From positions 1 through 43,214 of the IMG/VR virus record IMGVR_UViG_3300045019_000022: a stretch of DNA of 43,214 nucleotides, one strand, 5' to 3'. A program made the translations under genes and the position numbers. Positions 34,029 to 42,566 of this stretch are shown piece by piece. This DNA is from a virus. Each line of letters begins with the position of its first letter. Positions within the stretch are counted from its first letter, which is position 1. The notes under the pieces are model-generated. The model saw nothing but the letters and a program-made list of their open reading frames with translations, ran no database searches and was not told the origin of the DNA.

Positions 34029-34577
34029 ATGAAACTGAAACTGACCAATGTACGCCTCGCATTCCCGGTGCTCTTCGACGCCAAGACCGTAAATGGCGAA
34101 GGCAAGCCTGCATTCTCCGCATCCCTGTTGCTGGATCCGGCCGACCCGCAGGTCAAGGCAATCCACGCTGCCATCGAGCAGGTTGCCAAGGACAAGTGGG
34201 GCACCAAGGCCGAGGCAGTACTGAAGCAAATGCGTGCCCAGGACAAGACCGCGCTGCACGACGGCGATCTGAAAGCCAACTATGACGGCTTCCCCGGCAA
34301 CCTGTACGTGTCCGCCCGCGCTTACACCCGCCCGCTGGTGATCGATAAGGACAAGACACCGCTGACAGAGCAGGACGGCAAGCCGTACGCTGGCTGTTAC
34401 GTGAACGCATCGGTCGAACTCTGGGCGCAGGACAACAACTACGGTAAGCGCGTGAACGCTTCGCTGCGCGGCATCCAGTTCTTCAAGGACGGTGACGCCT
34501 TCGCCGGCGGCGGTGCTGCGAGCGATGACGAATTCGACGACATCGCCGAAGGCGCAACCGCAGACGACCTGGTTTAA
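34029..34577 (+). CDS. DUF2815 single-stranded DNA-binding protein
   Basis: A 182-aa protein with the DUF2815 pattern: MKLKLTNVRLAFPVLFDAKT, the DGFPGNLYVSARAYTRPLVI strand set, and an acidic C-terminal tail (DDEFDDIAEG onward) as in T7 gp2.5-type ssDNA-binding proteins. The tail usually contacts partner replication proteins. AGGA precedes the ATG. It is probably paired with the DUF2800 nuclease in a recombination system. Confidence 0.85.
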   Translation: MKLKLTNVRLAFPVLFDAKTVNGEGKPAFSASLLLDPADPQVKAIHAAIEQVAKDKWGTKAEAVLKQMRAQDKTALHDGDLKANYDGFPGNLYVSARAYTRPLVIDKDKTPLTEQDGKPYAGCYVNASVELWAQDNNYGKRVNASLRGIQFFKDGDAFAGGGAASDDEFDDIAEGATADDLV

Positions 34578-34589
34578 GCATCACGATTC

Positions 34590-34611
34590 CCTGCCCTTCG
34601 GGGCAGGGCTC
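34590..34611 (+). repeat. Intergenic hairpin repeat, copy 1
   Basis: An 8-bp perfect stem CCCTGCCC/GGGCAGGG (34589-34608) with a TTCG tetraloop follows the DUF2815 gene. The 22-bp unit recurs with one mismatch at 35322-35343, on the other side of the Gp49-like gene. There is no T run, so it is more likely an RNA stability or processing element than a terminator. Confidence 0.7.
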
Positions 34612-34636: not shown

Positions 34637-35311
34637 ATGAGCACCATCATTAAACCCACGGTAGGACGCAAGGTCTGGTATTTCACCTCCGCACGTCACC
34701 ATGAAGGCTTTACGGCCGGTGAGCCTGACAACCAGCCGTATGACGCAACCATACTGTTCGCCGATAACGACCGTGACGTGAATCTCCTTGTAGTTGATCA
34801 CCTCGGCATCACTCAGACATGTGTCGGCGTGCAACTGTTCCAAGAAGGCGACGACACCCCTAGAGGCGCACACGCCCGGTGGATGCCGTACCAAACCGGT
34901 CAGGCGGCGAAAGCCGAGAAGGCTGCAGGAGCTGCGCCAGCGGCGACGGACACCGCGATCGAGCAGGAAATCCAAGCCAAGGGCCTAACAGCGCCACGCG
35001 TTACGCCGGCTGAAATCGAAGTAAATATTGCTACCGAACACTACTTCACTGCGTTGAATGCCTTCAACCGTGAGGGCTCGTGGGACGGAATCAGTGATGA
35101 ACAGACGATGAAATCCGCAAAGGCGCTCTCGCTGCTCACCTTTTGCGTGCTGGTCCTGCGCAACGGCTTCACTGTCACCGGCGAGTCGGCCTGCGCATCA
35201 CCTGAGAATTTCGACGCAGAGATCGGCCGCAAGATCGCCCGCCAGAACGCCGTGCAGAAGATCTGGCCGCTGATGGGTTACGAGTTGCGCAGCAAATTAA
35301 GCCAGCAGTAG
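34637..35311 (+). CDS. Gp49-like (N4 Gp49 / Sf6 gene 66 family) protein
   Basis: A 224-aa protein in two parts. The N-terminal 80 residues contain a small beta domain (VGRKVWYFTSARHHEG, DRDVNLLVVDHLG). The C-terminal 90 residues have the conserved family core HYFTALNAFNREG, LLTFCVLVLRNGFTVTGESA followed by CASPENFD, and KIWPLMGYELRSKL. The family is widespread in phages and its role is unknown. The gene is bracketed by two copies of a 22-bp hairpin repeat. Confidence 0.85.
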   Translation: MSTIIKPTVGRKVWYFTSARHHEGFTAGEPDNQPYDATILFADNDRDVNLLVVDHLGITQTCVGVQLFQEGDDTPRGAHARWMPYQTGQAAKAEKAAGAAPAATDTAIEQEIQAKGLTAPRVTPAEIEVNIATEHYFTALNAFNREGSWDGISDEQTMKSAKALSLLTFCVLVLRNGFTVTGESACASPENFDAEIGRKIARQNAVQKIWPLMGYELRSKLSQQ

Positions 35312-35321
35312 CACTGAGAGT

Positions 35322-35343
35322 CCTGCCCTTCAGGGCAGGGCTC
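35322..35343 (+). repeat. Intergenic hairpin repeat, copy 2
   Basis: CCTGCCC/GGGCAGG with a TTCA loop; one mismatch to the copy at 34590-34611. It lies 10 bp after the Gp49-like stop. Confidence 0.7.
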
Positions 35344-35385
35344 TTAGGTTGCCGAGTGCCCCGCGCATGGTCGGCAACCTAAGAG
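35341..35385. other. 15-bp perfect inverted repeat (RNA hairpin)
   Basis: CTCTTAGGTTGCCGA (35341-35355) and its exact complement (35371-35385) flank a 15-nt loop. It starts where the previous repeat ends. There is no T run after the stem. It could be an RNA stem or a protein-binding site in DNA. Confidence 0.65.
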
Positions 35386-35460
35386 AGCGGGAGCTTCCGC
35401 CGACCCCGACAGGTGTGCTGCACATCGGTCGGCCGCGCCAGCCAGCGTGGAATAAAACAG

Positions 35461-35555
35461 GCCCGGATCGCTACCCATCGTTGCCCGCTGAAAAACACCA
35501 CAACGATGCAGTGCGTAAACCGTGGGGAGCTGAATAGTGACACGGCAATCCGGGC
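35461..35555 (+). ncRNA. Candidate structured RNA, three-way junction
   Basis: A closing stem GCCCGGAT/ATCCGGGC (35461-35468, 35548-35555) encloses two hairpins: CATCGTTG/CAACGATG (35476-35483, 35501-35508) and CCGTG/CACGG (35520-35524, 35541-35545). A further hairpin GCCGACC/GGTCGGC lies upstream (35399-35433). It sits in the leader of the Cys-rich gene at 35581. The shape (outer stem, two inner hairpins, phage operon) resembles the phage c4 antisense RNA class, but I could not test this. A 62-codon open frame runs across the same region (35349-35537) and is the alternative explanation. Confidence 0.5.
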
Positions 35556-35580
35556 AAAAGGCACTTAATTAAAGAGAACC

Positions 35581-35910
35581 ATGACGACTTATTCGCTTCG
35601 CTGCCGGAATAGTAAGTGCCGCCATCGCCGGGTGGGAACGATTCACCCAGATGACTATGAGCGCGTGCCGAAGTGCCCGATCTGCGGCGAGACTAAAGGC
35701 TGGCGGGTCGAACAGCGTCAGTACAGCAAGCGGAATCGTTGTCATTGCATGGGATACCACCACCCACACCACAAGGGCACGTCGAAGTTCTGCGAGCACC
35801 ACCCGCAAGGCTTCTACAACCAGGCGAAACGCGCCGGTGTGGCTGATGAAGATATCCCGCTTGAATACCTTGGCCGAGACATTAAAGAAGACGAACCCTG
35901 CCCATTTTAA
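35581..35910 (+). CDS. Cys/His-rich, probable zinc-binding protein
   Basis: A 109-aa protein. It has a zinc-ribbon-like pair (CRNSKC at about 8-13, and CPICGETKGW around 32-41) followed by RCHCMGYHHPHHKG and CEHHPQG, which could hold a second metal. Such short ribbons often bind nucleic acid or act as adaptors. Its leader holds the structured element 35461-35555, so its translation may be RNA-controlled. AAAGAGA precedes the ATG. Confidence 0.72.
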   Translation: MTTYSLRCRNSKCRHRRVGTIHPDDYERVPKCPICGETKGWRVEQRQYSKRNRCHCMGYHHPHHKGTSKFCEHHPQGFYNQAKRAGVADEDIPLEYLGRDIKEDEPCPF

Positions 35911-36618: not shown

Positions 36619-38679
36619 ATGACCACTTTATACCTTGACCTCGAGACGTACAGCGAAGTGCCAATTACCAATGGCACGCACGCTTACGCTGAAGGTGCGG
36701 AGATTCTGCTGTTCGCCTACGCCTTCGACGACGGTCCCGTCAAGGTATGGGACCGCGCATCCGGTGAGTCGATGCCGTCGGAACTGGCCGATGCGCTGGA
36801 AAACGAAAGCGTAATCCTGTGCGCTCACAATTCGCACTTCGACCGCACGATGTTGAACCATTGGAACTGCCGCACATCGCTGCACCGGTGGCGCGACACC
36901 ATGGTCAAGGCATTGGCGCACTCGCTGCCCGGCGCCCTGGGCGATCTGTGCGACATCCTGAAAGTCCCGACCGACAAAGCCAAGGACAAGGAAGGACGCC
37001 AGCTGATCCAGCTGTTCTGCAAGCCGCGTCCGGTCAGCAGCAAGATCCGCCGCGCTACGCGTGAGACACACCCAGCGGAGTGGGCCAAGTTTGTAGATTA
37101 CGCCGCGCTCGATATCGAGGCCATGCGTGTGGTCGACGCCAAGCTGCCGTCATGGAACTATCACGGACCAGAACTTGGCCTTTGGCACCTCGACCAGCGT
37201 ATCAACGACCGCGGCGTTTTGATGGACGTGGCACTCGCCCGCGCTGCTATCCGCGGCGTCGAGCGCGCTCAGAGATTGCTAGCTGCGCGCACTAGCGAAT
37301 TGACCGAAGGAGCGGTGCAGGCTGCCACCCAGCGCGATGCGCTGTTGCGCCACCTCGTGTCCGCCTATGGCATCGATCTGCCGGACATGCAGCAGAGCAC
37401 TCTTGAGCGCAGGATCAACGATCCGGGACTGCCGGCGGAACTGCGCGAGCTATTGGCGATCAGGCTGCAAGCCAGCACCACCAGCACGAGCAAATACAAG
37501 ACGTTGATTAAGGCAGTAAGCAACGACGGTCGGCTCCGGGGGACACTCCAGTTCAATGGCGCCAATCGCACAGGCCGCTGGGCGGGTCGTCTTTTCCAGC
37601 CGCAGAACTTGCCGCGCCCGGTATTGAAGCAGGCCGCCATCGATAACGGCATTGCAGCGCTGAAAGCCGATTGCGAGGACCTGCTGTTCTCCAACGTCAT
37701 GGAACTGGCCAGTAGCGCGATCCGTGGCTGCATCATCGCACCGCCGGGGAAAAAGCTCGTAATTGCTGATCTCTCCAATATCGAGGGTCGGAAGCTCGCC
37801 TGGCTCGCAGGCGAACAGTGGAAGCTGCGTGCATTCCGCGAGTTTGACGCCGGTATCGGGCATGACCTTTACAAGCTGGCTTATGCGAAGGCCTTCGGCG
37901 TGCGGCCCGAGGACGTGGACAAGGACATGCGCCAGATCGGCAAGGTTATGGAGTTGGCGCTCGGCTATGAGGGCGGTGTCGGGGCATTCCTTACTTTCGC
38001 CGCCGCGTACGGTATTGACCTCGAAGCCATGGCTGATCGTGCAATCGGTGCGATTCCCAAGGCCATCTTGGACGAAGCCCAAAGCGCGCTCGAATGGACG
38101 AAGCAGAAGAAGCGCCCGACCTTTGGCTTGTCTGACCGCGCGTGGCTGGTCTGTGATTCCTTTAAGCGCTCATGGCGGTACGCCCACCCAGCGATCAGTT
38201 CCATGTGGAAGGAGCTGCAGGAAGCGGCAGTTCTGGCGGTGCAGCGCCCAGGCGTGACGACGACCTGCCGCATGCTGAAGCTGCGCCGCGACGGCGCTTG
38301 GCTGCGGATCCGGCTGCCATCCGGGCGATTCCTTTGCTACCCCAGCCCGCAGGTCGATGAGTCCGGCAAGCTGACCTATATGGGTGTCAACCAGTACACC
38401 CGCAAATGGTCCCGCCTGAGCACCTACGGCGGCAAGCTGGTGGAGAACGTGACGCAGGCCGCAAGCCGCGACGTGATCGCACACAACATGCCTGCCGTCG
38501 AGCAGGCCGGATACGAGATTCTGCTGACGGTTCACGATGAGGACATTACCGAGGCACCGGACACCGAAGAATTCAACGCCGACCATCTGGCCGGTTTGAT
38601 GGCAACAAACCCACCCTGGGCCAAGGACCTGCCGCTCGCCGCGGCTGGCTTCGAAGCCTATCGATATCGGAAAGACTAA
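36619..38679 (+). CDS. Family A DNA polymerase (phage type)
   Basis: A 686-aa polymerase. The 3'-5' exonuclease domain starts with LDLETYS (D7, E9) and continues with [10 protein letters not shown] and a YAALDIEAM segment. Polymerase motif A is [20 protein letters not shown] (D384), and motif C is TVHDED (H639, D640). The middle segment [20 protein letters not shown] is typical for phage PolA-type enzymes. It replicates the phage genome together with the primase-helicase at 26827-29472, which lies in the opposite operon. Confidence 0.94.
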
Positions 38680-41312: not shown

Positions 41313-41511
41313 GGATGAAATTATCAGCCTGACCCAGAAGCGCCGCCATGATGCTCAGGCACGTGCGCTGCGCTTTCTGGGTATCGAACACCGTGCAAGG
41401 CCGGACGGTTCCTTGGCTGTGCTGCGCGCCCATGTTGAAAAGCAGCTCGGCGAAGGCGTAGTATCCAAGGCCAGAAAGAAAACCGAACCCCGTTTTGACC
41501 TGGTGACCTGA
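41299..41511 (+). CDS. DUF4224 protein, candidate excisionase/integrase partner
   Basis: A 70-aa protein of the DUF4224 type (MFLDEDEIISLTQKRRHDAQ, then LRFLGIEHRARPDGSLAVLR). DUF4224 proteins are usually encoded directly upstream of phage tyrosine integrases, as here (1-bp overlap with the integrase). The fold suggests a small winged helix, so a recombination-directionality role is a reasonable inference. The N-terminal part of the protein at 42566-43015 is a clear paralogue. Confidence 0.78.
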   Translation: MFLDEDEIISLTQKRRHDAQARALRFLGIEHRARPDGSLAVLRAHVEKQLGEGVVSKARKKTEPRFDLVT

Positions 41512-42566
41512 TGCCCCCGAAACGCAAATCCGAGAACCGTGGCCTGCCGGCGCGCTGGGTGTACAAGCACAATGCCTATTACTACCTGCCGCCGGAATCG
41601 CAGCGCGCCCAGTGGGACGGCAAGGCGTGGTTCCGCCTGGGCGGCACGCTGCCGGAAGCGTATAAGGTTTGGGCCGAACGCGTCGCCGCGCCTGAGAAAA
41701 TCAGAACTATCGGCGAGCTGTTTGACCGCTACGTGTTGGAGGTCGTCCCGGGTAAGGCGCCGAAGACGCAGACCGAAAACCACCGGCAGATCGCTGCCTT
41801 ACGGAAAGCATTCAGCGATACCGCGCTGACCGACCTCGAGCCGCAGCACGTCTATAAATACGTGGATAGGCGCTCCGCCAAGACGGCCGCGAAGCGGGAA
41901 GTAGAAGTCCTGAGCCACGCCTTCACGAAGGCAGTGCAGTGGGGGCTGCTCAAAGCGCACCCGTTCAAGGGCGAGGTGCGGCTGGAAGGCGAAGCACCTC
42001 GCGATCGCTACGTCGAAGACTGGGAACTGATCGAAGCCATGTCGATGTCGTCGAAGCGGCGCAAGGGCAGCGTCGGCATGATCCAGGCATACCTACGCCT
42101 GAAGATGTTGACCGGCCTGCGCAAGGGCGACATCCTGCGGCTGACCATGGCGGACTGCCGGGAAGACGGGATCCATGTGCAGCCGTCCAAGACCCGCAAG
42201 TCCACCGGCAAGCGGTTGATCTATGAATGGTCGCCCGAGCTGCGCGTTGCGGTCGACGAGGTGGTGGCAATGCGGCCCGCTCTGTCACCGTACCTGTTCA
42301 GTAATAAGTTCGGCCGCCCACTGTTTGAAGAAGAGAAGGGCACCACCAAGGGATTCGACACCATCTGGCATTCCTTCATGGAGCGCCTGTTGAAGGAATC
42401 CAAGGTGGAGCAGCGCTTTACCGAGCACGATCTGCGCGCGAAAGTGGGCAGCGATGCCGAGAGTCTGGAGCGTGCGCGCCAGCTGCTGGCGCACTCGGAT
42501 TCCCGCATGACAGAGCGGGTATATCGTCGGAAGCCTGAGCTGATCAAGCCGGCTGGAGGAAAGTAG
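41511..42566 (+). CDS. int: Tyrosine integrase
   Basis: A 351-aa tyrosine recombinase that should integrate into and excise from the tRNA-Val 3' end. Catalytic residues are in place: R204 (TGLRKGDIL), a Lys in the KTRKSTGK hairpin (about 227-230), H306 and R309 (HDLR), H328 (LAHSD) and Y338 (MTERVYRR). An N-terminal core-binding domain spans about residues 65-150. It ends 543 bp before attR. Its end overlaps the start of the GIY-YIG gene by one base, so they should be co-translated. Confidence 0.94.
   Translation: MPPKRKSENRGLPARWVYKHNAYYYLPPESQRAQWDGKAWFRLGGTLPEAYKVWAERVAAPEKIRTIGELFDRYVLEVVPGKAPKTQTENHRQIAALRKAFSDTALTDLEPQHVYKYVDRRSAKTAAKREVEVLSHAFTKAVQWGLLKAHPFKGEVRLEGEAPRDRYVEDWELIEAMSMSSKRRKGSVGMIQAYLRLKMLTGLRKGDILRLTMADCREDGIHVQPSKTRKSTGKRLIYEWSPELRVAVDEVVAMRPALSPYLFSNKFGRPLFEEEKGTTKGFDTIWHSFMERLLKESKVEQRFTEHDLRAKVGSDAESLERARQLLAHSDSRMTERVYRRKPELIKPAGGK

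Follow-up and report, generated by a model that had tools for sequence, protein, structure and literature searches.

We describe a new family of phage RNAs, about 150-180 nt in length, whose compared sequences reveal a three-way junction with both hairpin loops paired to the strand just upstream. The member in the window (the whole 43,214-nt stretch of viral DNA analysed here) lies at 35387-35564 on the + strand, in the downstream part of an intergenic block at 35312-35580. Its fold, strand, conservation and operon position are established by comparative sequence analysis, and the RNA probably controls or protects the mRNA of phage DNA recombination and replication genes. We infer a more specific function, to which we give an even chance: within the early recombination/replication mRNA, the RNA would act in cis as an intercistronic element. 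The novelty lies in the RNA family and its fold; the function may be ordinary cis control.

The preliminary description of the block had listed a series of hairpins, all of which are present when the sequence is read base by base. H1 (35322-35328/35333-35339, + strand, CCTGCCC/GGGCAGG) has a 7-bp, terminator-like stem, lacks a U tract, and stands just 3´ of a Gp49-like gene; a near-identical copy at 34590-34608 lies 3´ of the ssDNA-binding gene, and H1 is an optional neighbour outside the RNA family. H2 is a perfect 15-bp stem (35341-35355/35371-35385, +), and a long hairpin of quite different sequence occupies its position in many relatives, including phages without the RNA unit. A 7-bp hairpin (35399-35405/35427-35433, +, GCCGACC/GGTCGGC) is a linker insertion common to the window and one relative, L004, only. 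The last unit has an outer stem, P2, of 8 bp (35461-35468/35548-35555, +, GCCCGGAT/ATCCGGGC) that encloses hairpins at 35476-35508 and 35520-35545. The minimum free energy of the 269-nt block is -115.6 kcal/mol, against -92.2 kcal/mol in dinucleotide shuffles (z=-4.8, 0/200), and this comes mainly from H1 and H2, for which the energy-only z is -5.0 (very significant), compared with -1.9 (modest) for the three-way unit and -0.8 (not significant) for the middle hairpin. It is the comparative evidence that settles the three-way unit as real. A scan for intrinsic terminators (a G+C-rich stem, then a U run) found 0 sites, and one for sigma-70 type promoters found none.

A search with the Cys-rich gene 3´ of the block led to L004, in which the block lies directly 3´ of a DUF2815 gene, and DUF2815 searches yielded about 200 phage loci and 38 bacterial loci. 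The stretch 3´ of the DUF2815 gene has the same architecture in relatives of unlike sequence. A covariance model (R1) that encodes the nested helices P2, P3 and P4 was built from three of these loci only (L078, L079 and L045), with the window left out. The window scores E=2.8e-9 against it, and ten other viral loci have E<0.05. R1 also matches five prophages at E of 7e-7 to 7e-18, two of them in Cupriavidus and one each in Paraburkholderia, a Ramlibacter MAG and a Gallionellaceae MAG; for unrelated prophages E is 1e-13 to 1e-18. The iterated model, R2, has 46 distinct members at E<1e-5, among them one in the sequenced Burkholderia phage BcepC6B (L279, 3639-3787). Together with four loci from whole-genome searches not based on DUF2815, in which 2/399, 5/401, 2/399 and 1/369 genomes had a match under strict filters that lose weak matches, the family comprises 50 phage and prophage loci, with one unit per locus. 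All members are on the operon sense strand and none on the opposite strand (about 1.2 Mb searched). Covariance models replaced a hand-written, short-helix structure descriptor that was insufficiently specific; DNA-pattern matches (most of 13; L103/L106; L293/L294/L296) lay in coding genes and were rejected as chance.

Nucleotide BLAST against phages and plasmids found no relatives of the element, because sequence identity is too low. At the gathering threshold, no family in Rfam 15, group I and II introns, ribozymes and riboswitches included, matches the window or 14 of the loci, and relaxed searches (E<=10) of the window, L078 and L279 gave chance-level matches only. The comparison with c4 and phage leader motifs that had been proposed for the block thus gave no match at either threshold. 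A search of the open-access literature found no paper describing the RNA family. We therefore regard family and fold as previously undescribed relative to Rfam 15, a comparison that covers motifs with an Rfam entry and not those published without one (e.g. Burkholderiales-1, PMC2864571).

Covariation carries the case for the fold. Across 46 distinct sequences, the nested helices P2, P3 and P4 are paired in 95.6% of alignment cells; in a slide control on the same alignment, which shifts partners by 1-3 columns, the figure is 34-46%. Because these helices served to fit the alignment, the absolute percentages are biased in their favour. All 21 of the 21 pairs have changed on both sides, and the covariation score is 0.939 versus 0.225 when shuffled. 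P2 is paired in 99.2% of cells (8/8 pairs changed on both sides), the P3 hairpin (35476-35483/35501-35508, +) in 91.5% (8/8) and the P4 hairpin (35520-35524/35541-35545, +) in 96.5% (5/5). From this alignment RNAalifold also predicts P2-P5. The preliminary description had staked a structured RNA on the presence of covarying pairs, and that test came out decisively in its favour: with compensatory changes beyond the controls, the aligned sequences mark the element as a conserved structured RNA.

The outer stem and two inner hairpins of the three-way-junction-like unit first proposed are thus real, but the picture was incomplete, since pseudoknots had been missed. Up to three interlocking loop pairings, none of them built into the alignment model, all covary. 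A contiguous 12-nt strand just 5´ of the unit pairs with both inner hairpin loops, forming two pseudoknots. Its first part, P0 (GCGGG, 35387-35391, +), pairs with CCCGC (P0´, 35484-35488) in the P3 loop, and the family holds the versions GCGGG/CCCGC, GAGGG/CCCTC, ACGGG/CCCGT, AAGGG/CCCTT, GCAGG/CCTGC and CAAGG/CCTTG. The second part, P1 (AGCTTCC, 35392-35398, +), pairs with GGGAGCT (P1´, 35525-35531) at the start of the P4 loop, and 7/7 of its pairs have changed on both sides. Farther along, a linker hairpin, P5 (CCGCGC[CAGCCA]GCGTGG, 35433-35450, +), covaries at 5/5 pairs and takes the form of at least 35 different stems. In the third pseudoknot, P6, the P5 loop pairs in the family with the G-rich part of a conserved 3´ tail with A-A (35556-35564, +), 2-5 nt after P2; in the window P6 is weak, at 3 bp only (GCC 35441-35443 with GGC 35560-35562). 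Against permuted partners, in a control that preserves each sequence's composition and does not fully remove relatedness, the own scores are 13.67 versus 12.28 (sd 0.29, 0/2000) for P0, 18.3 versus 6.1 (sd 1.0, 0/2000) for P1 and 11.55 versus 7.36 (sd 0.67, 0/5000) for P6. The distance from P0+P1 to the outer stem is nearly fixed across the family, at 39-46 nt (about 42); the P1-P2 linker of the window is longer (69 nt) because of the inserted hairpin at 35399-35433.

A compact fold with several pseudoknots and a few invariant unpaired bases (an A in the P4-P2 joint, A-A in the P4 loop and tail, C-C in the P5 loop) could be that of a riboswitch, built around a small-molecule core, or of a self-cleaving ribozyme, built around a catalytic one. 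We consider this very unlikely, given that the 46 members have hardly any invariant unpaired core, that no metabolite is common to the neighbouring genes, and that Rfam offers no match.

The pairing statistics further show that the element acts as a + strand RNA, and not as DNA or opposite-strand RNA, since G-U pairs in the nested helices far exceed A-C (61 cells versus 9), an excess of which part is built in because the model tolerates G-U, although the helices are few and fixed. Its position among replication and recombination genes would suit a DNA element, such as a replication origin or a recombination site that folds as single-stranded DNA; however, the G-U excess on the + strand and an orientation that is always that of transcription make this highly improbable, and we rejected it. 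The preliminary description had also pointed to an open frame across the block. The frame, 35349-35537, does exist in the window but is not conserved, and the short protein it would encode is refuted by the comparative data and deserves practically no credence: the frame is open in 30/47 members, where shuffles predict 26.4, element lengths modulo 3 fall into all classes (19/17/11), and indels relative to L004 shift the frame.

The window is an integrated prophage with Bordetella phage BPP-1 among its relatives. Its attL and attR are marked by a 32-bp direct repeat (96-127/43109-43140) that overlaps the 3´ part of a tRNA gene (48-119). An integrase gene is found at 41511-42566. The replication module runs in the order DUF2800 nuclease, DUF2815, Gp49-like, block, Cys-rich and family-A DNA polymerase. 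DUF2815 is a Gp2.5/Enc34-like ssDNA-binding and annealing protein (34029-34577, +; Pfam PF10991, E=1.5e-43; phrog_112). Between its gene and the RNA sits the Gp49-like gene (34637-35311, +; PF13876), and a copy of H1 flanks it on either side. The hairpin and its flanks form a near-identical direct repeat (34588-34610 and 35320-35342), and L004 and similar relatives have a single H1 with H2 directly after, an arrangement that looks as if recombination at the H1 hairpin had placed the gene. Directly 3´ of the RNA is the gene for a small Cys-rich protein (35581-35910, +), and the polymerase gene (36619-38679, +) is the next replication gene. L004 and L072 likewise have a Cys-rich homologue 3´ of the RNA, and in L143 and L045 the association is looser. 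Since the Cys-rich proteins of the window and L004 are 82% identical and the DUF2815 proteins 52-54%, the RNA and the Cys-rich gene may move together as a cassette.

Across the family, the chief gene partner of the RNA is the DUF2815 annealing gene, which lies upstream in 46/46 R2 loci, with a polymerase downstream in most of the 46 where the contig reaches. In about 20 loci 4-12 nt separate the upstream stop codon from P0, and in >20 loci a plausible start codon is found 24-42 nt 3´ of the outer stem. The placement of the window's unit directly before the ribosome site of the gene at 35581, noted earlier, is thus borne out for a conserved structured phage RNA. The gene that follows varies, being a polymerase, the Cys-rich gene, an HNH gene or another; a polymerase-type gene starts directly 3´ of the RNA in L078, L079, L068, L075, L094 and L221. 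In some loci H1/H2 or whole genes stand between the annealing gene and the RNA, and in L100/L101-type loci H1/H2 are absent or 3´ of the RNA. One of the four extra whole-genome loci has DUF2815; in the others the RNA lies 3´ of ERF (L290), of RecT and a YqaJ exonuclease (L291), or of an SSB-containing module (L289). The RNA is present in some phages and absent from their close relatives, among them L107, the nearest relative of the window, and on a quick DUF2815 tree it needs 19 gains or losses, compared with 38.2 when labels are shuffled. As judged from this distribution, the RNA is a dispensable, exchangeable module.

Several other features were seen around these loci. A Tad2-like (Thoeris anti-defence) gene lies directly 5´ of the RNA in L289 (5779-6345), a prophage without DUF2815, and a similar-looking gene lies about 1.5 kb 3´ of the RNA in L291 (8428-8952). 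A second conserved hairpin, GGGG-GAAAGCGGATGCTG ... CAGCGAGTA-CCCC, follows the DUF2815 gene in the BPP-1-like loci L063, L066, L067, L069 and L074 and is also found just 5´ of the RNA in L289; this could be another RNA motif that is yet to be described. Free-standing homing endonucleases of the NUMOD4/HNH-like type (EIWKDIPGYEGRYQVS...) often occupy the gap between the annealing and polymerase genes, as insertions after the DUF2815 gene in L022, L032, L034, L046, L204, L211 and L215.

How might the RNA act? In the cis-acting reading, it would form behind the stop codon of an annealing or exonuclease gene and end about 20-40 nt 5´ of the next start codon. There it would set how far the next gene is expressed, hindering or gating the entry of ribosomes and tying it to translation of the gene upstream, and/or would shield the mRNA segment from nucleases. 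Where P0+P1 starts 4-12 nt past the stop, a ribosome terminating on the upstream gene would cover this strand, and the pseudoknots would stay open; such an arrangement suggests that the annealing gene and the next gene are translationally coupled. Our guess is that a protein such as the annealing protein could bind the RNA, by analogy with T4 gp32 and its own pseudoknot. The preliminary proposal of a cis-acting leader or a small RNA holds insofar as the structured RNA is real and a cis fold is favoured; a leader specific to one gene is unlikely, because the downstream gene varies. Counting against cis control are a Shine-Dalgarno sequence that lies in no helix, the genes or H1/H2 that intervene in some loci, and the close relatives without the RNA.

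The same position could also mark an mRNA boundary. In the window and several relatives, a long perfect H2 immediately precedes P0, and the 5´ end of the RNA is buried in two pseudoknots, as might be expected if H2 were a putative RNase III-type stem and the RNA capped the new 5´ end or guarded the 3´ end of the annealing-gene mRNA. The L100/L101-type loci, in which H1/H2 are absent or 3´ of the RNA, argue against this, and we regard it as unlikely. Less probable still is that the RNA is a trans-acting, noncoding part of phage recombination, which would be made alongside annealing proteins and exonucleases of unrelated families (DUF2815, RecT, ERF) and might, for instance, bind the annealing protein or inhibit a host nuclease or defence; it would then play, at the RNA level, the part that Gam-type proteins have in other phages.

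Whichever function applies, the architecture is unusual, with one upstream strand clamping two hairpin loops and a third pairing between loop and tail, and the family is tied to the recombination/replication operon of temperate phages, BcepC6B included. Covariation is strong enough for the fold to guide mutational design, probing and cryo-EM directly, and it opens to experiment the control of phage annealing and polymerase genes at the RNA level.

Known RNAs offer several points of comparison. The T4 gene 32 mRNA pseudoknot mediates autogenous control by the ssDNA-binding protein gp32. Like the new RNA, it belongs to the mRNA of a phage ssDNA-binding/replication module, but it is much smaller and lies 5´ of gene 32, whereas the new RNA lies 3´ of the ssDNA-binding gene. 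The DUF2800 and DUF2815 RNA motifs, candidate RNAs of Firmicutes phages, are associated with the same gene families; they differ in that no Rfam family matches the 14 loci (gathering) or the element (relaxed). STAXI (RF01728) is likewise a pseudoknotted RNA often near single-stranded-DNA-binding protein genes, but consists of a short pseudoknot repeated two or three times (PMC2864571). The new RNA is single, larger and non-repeated, its loci showing one unit each and no tandem pseudoknot, and it has no Rfam match.

A close likeness is to the c4 antisense RNA of phages P1 and P7 (RF01695; upstream target c4-a1b1, RF03163), recognised in the preliminary description. In P1, c4 consists of two hairpins within an outer stem, and a UUCG loop caps one of these hairpins; of its two complementary stretches, a´ is part of the junction strand and b´ of the second hairpin loop, and they match a1/b1 upstream and a2/b2 at the start of icd (PMC5320573; P1 annotation). 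The likeness is apt in outline, as both are phage RNAs with an outer stem enclosing two hairpins and with two stretches complementary to a short upstream sequence of the same transcript. The new RNA could accordingly be thought of as a trans-acting small RNA whose three-way unit is cut from the mRNA and whose loops pair with P0+P1-like sites elsewhere, for instance in a superinfecting phage. P1 c4 with its upstream a1/b1 target has the same outline, and the P1 helix of the new family, which varies between phages and stays self-complementary, resembles an immunity specificity. We think this rather unlikely. P0+P1 keeps its nearly fixed distance from the outer stem, the third pseudoknot ties linker to tail as one cis fold would, and no second target copy stands out (42 matches versus 55 expected, in the whole window prophage and, for the others, in the fetched loci). 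No antirepressor gene was recognised adjoining the RNA. The Rfam C4 model, which scores phage P1 at 68.8 bits as a positive control, matches neither the window nor 14 relatives at the gathering threshold, nor the window, L078 or L279 at E<=10. Membership in c4 was rejected on these grounds together with the different contacts, the c4 layout, with its UUCG-capped first hairpin and with a´ and b´ placed in the junction strand and the second loop respectively, being absent from the new RNA. Contacts in c4 are made through one hairpin loop and the junction strand, and there is a second target at icd, whereas the new RNA uses both loops against one contiguous strand, adds a third pseudoknot and keeps a fixed spacing of about 42 nt, which favours a cis fold over a trans antisense RNA.
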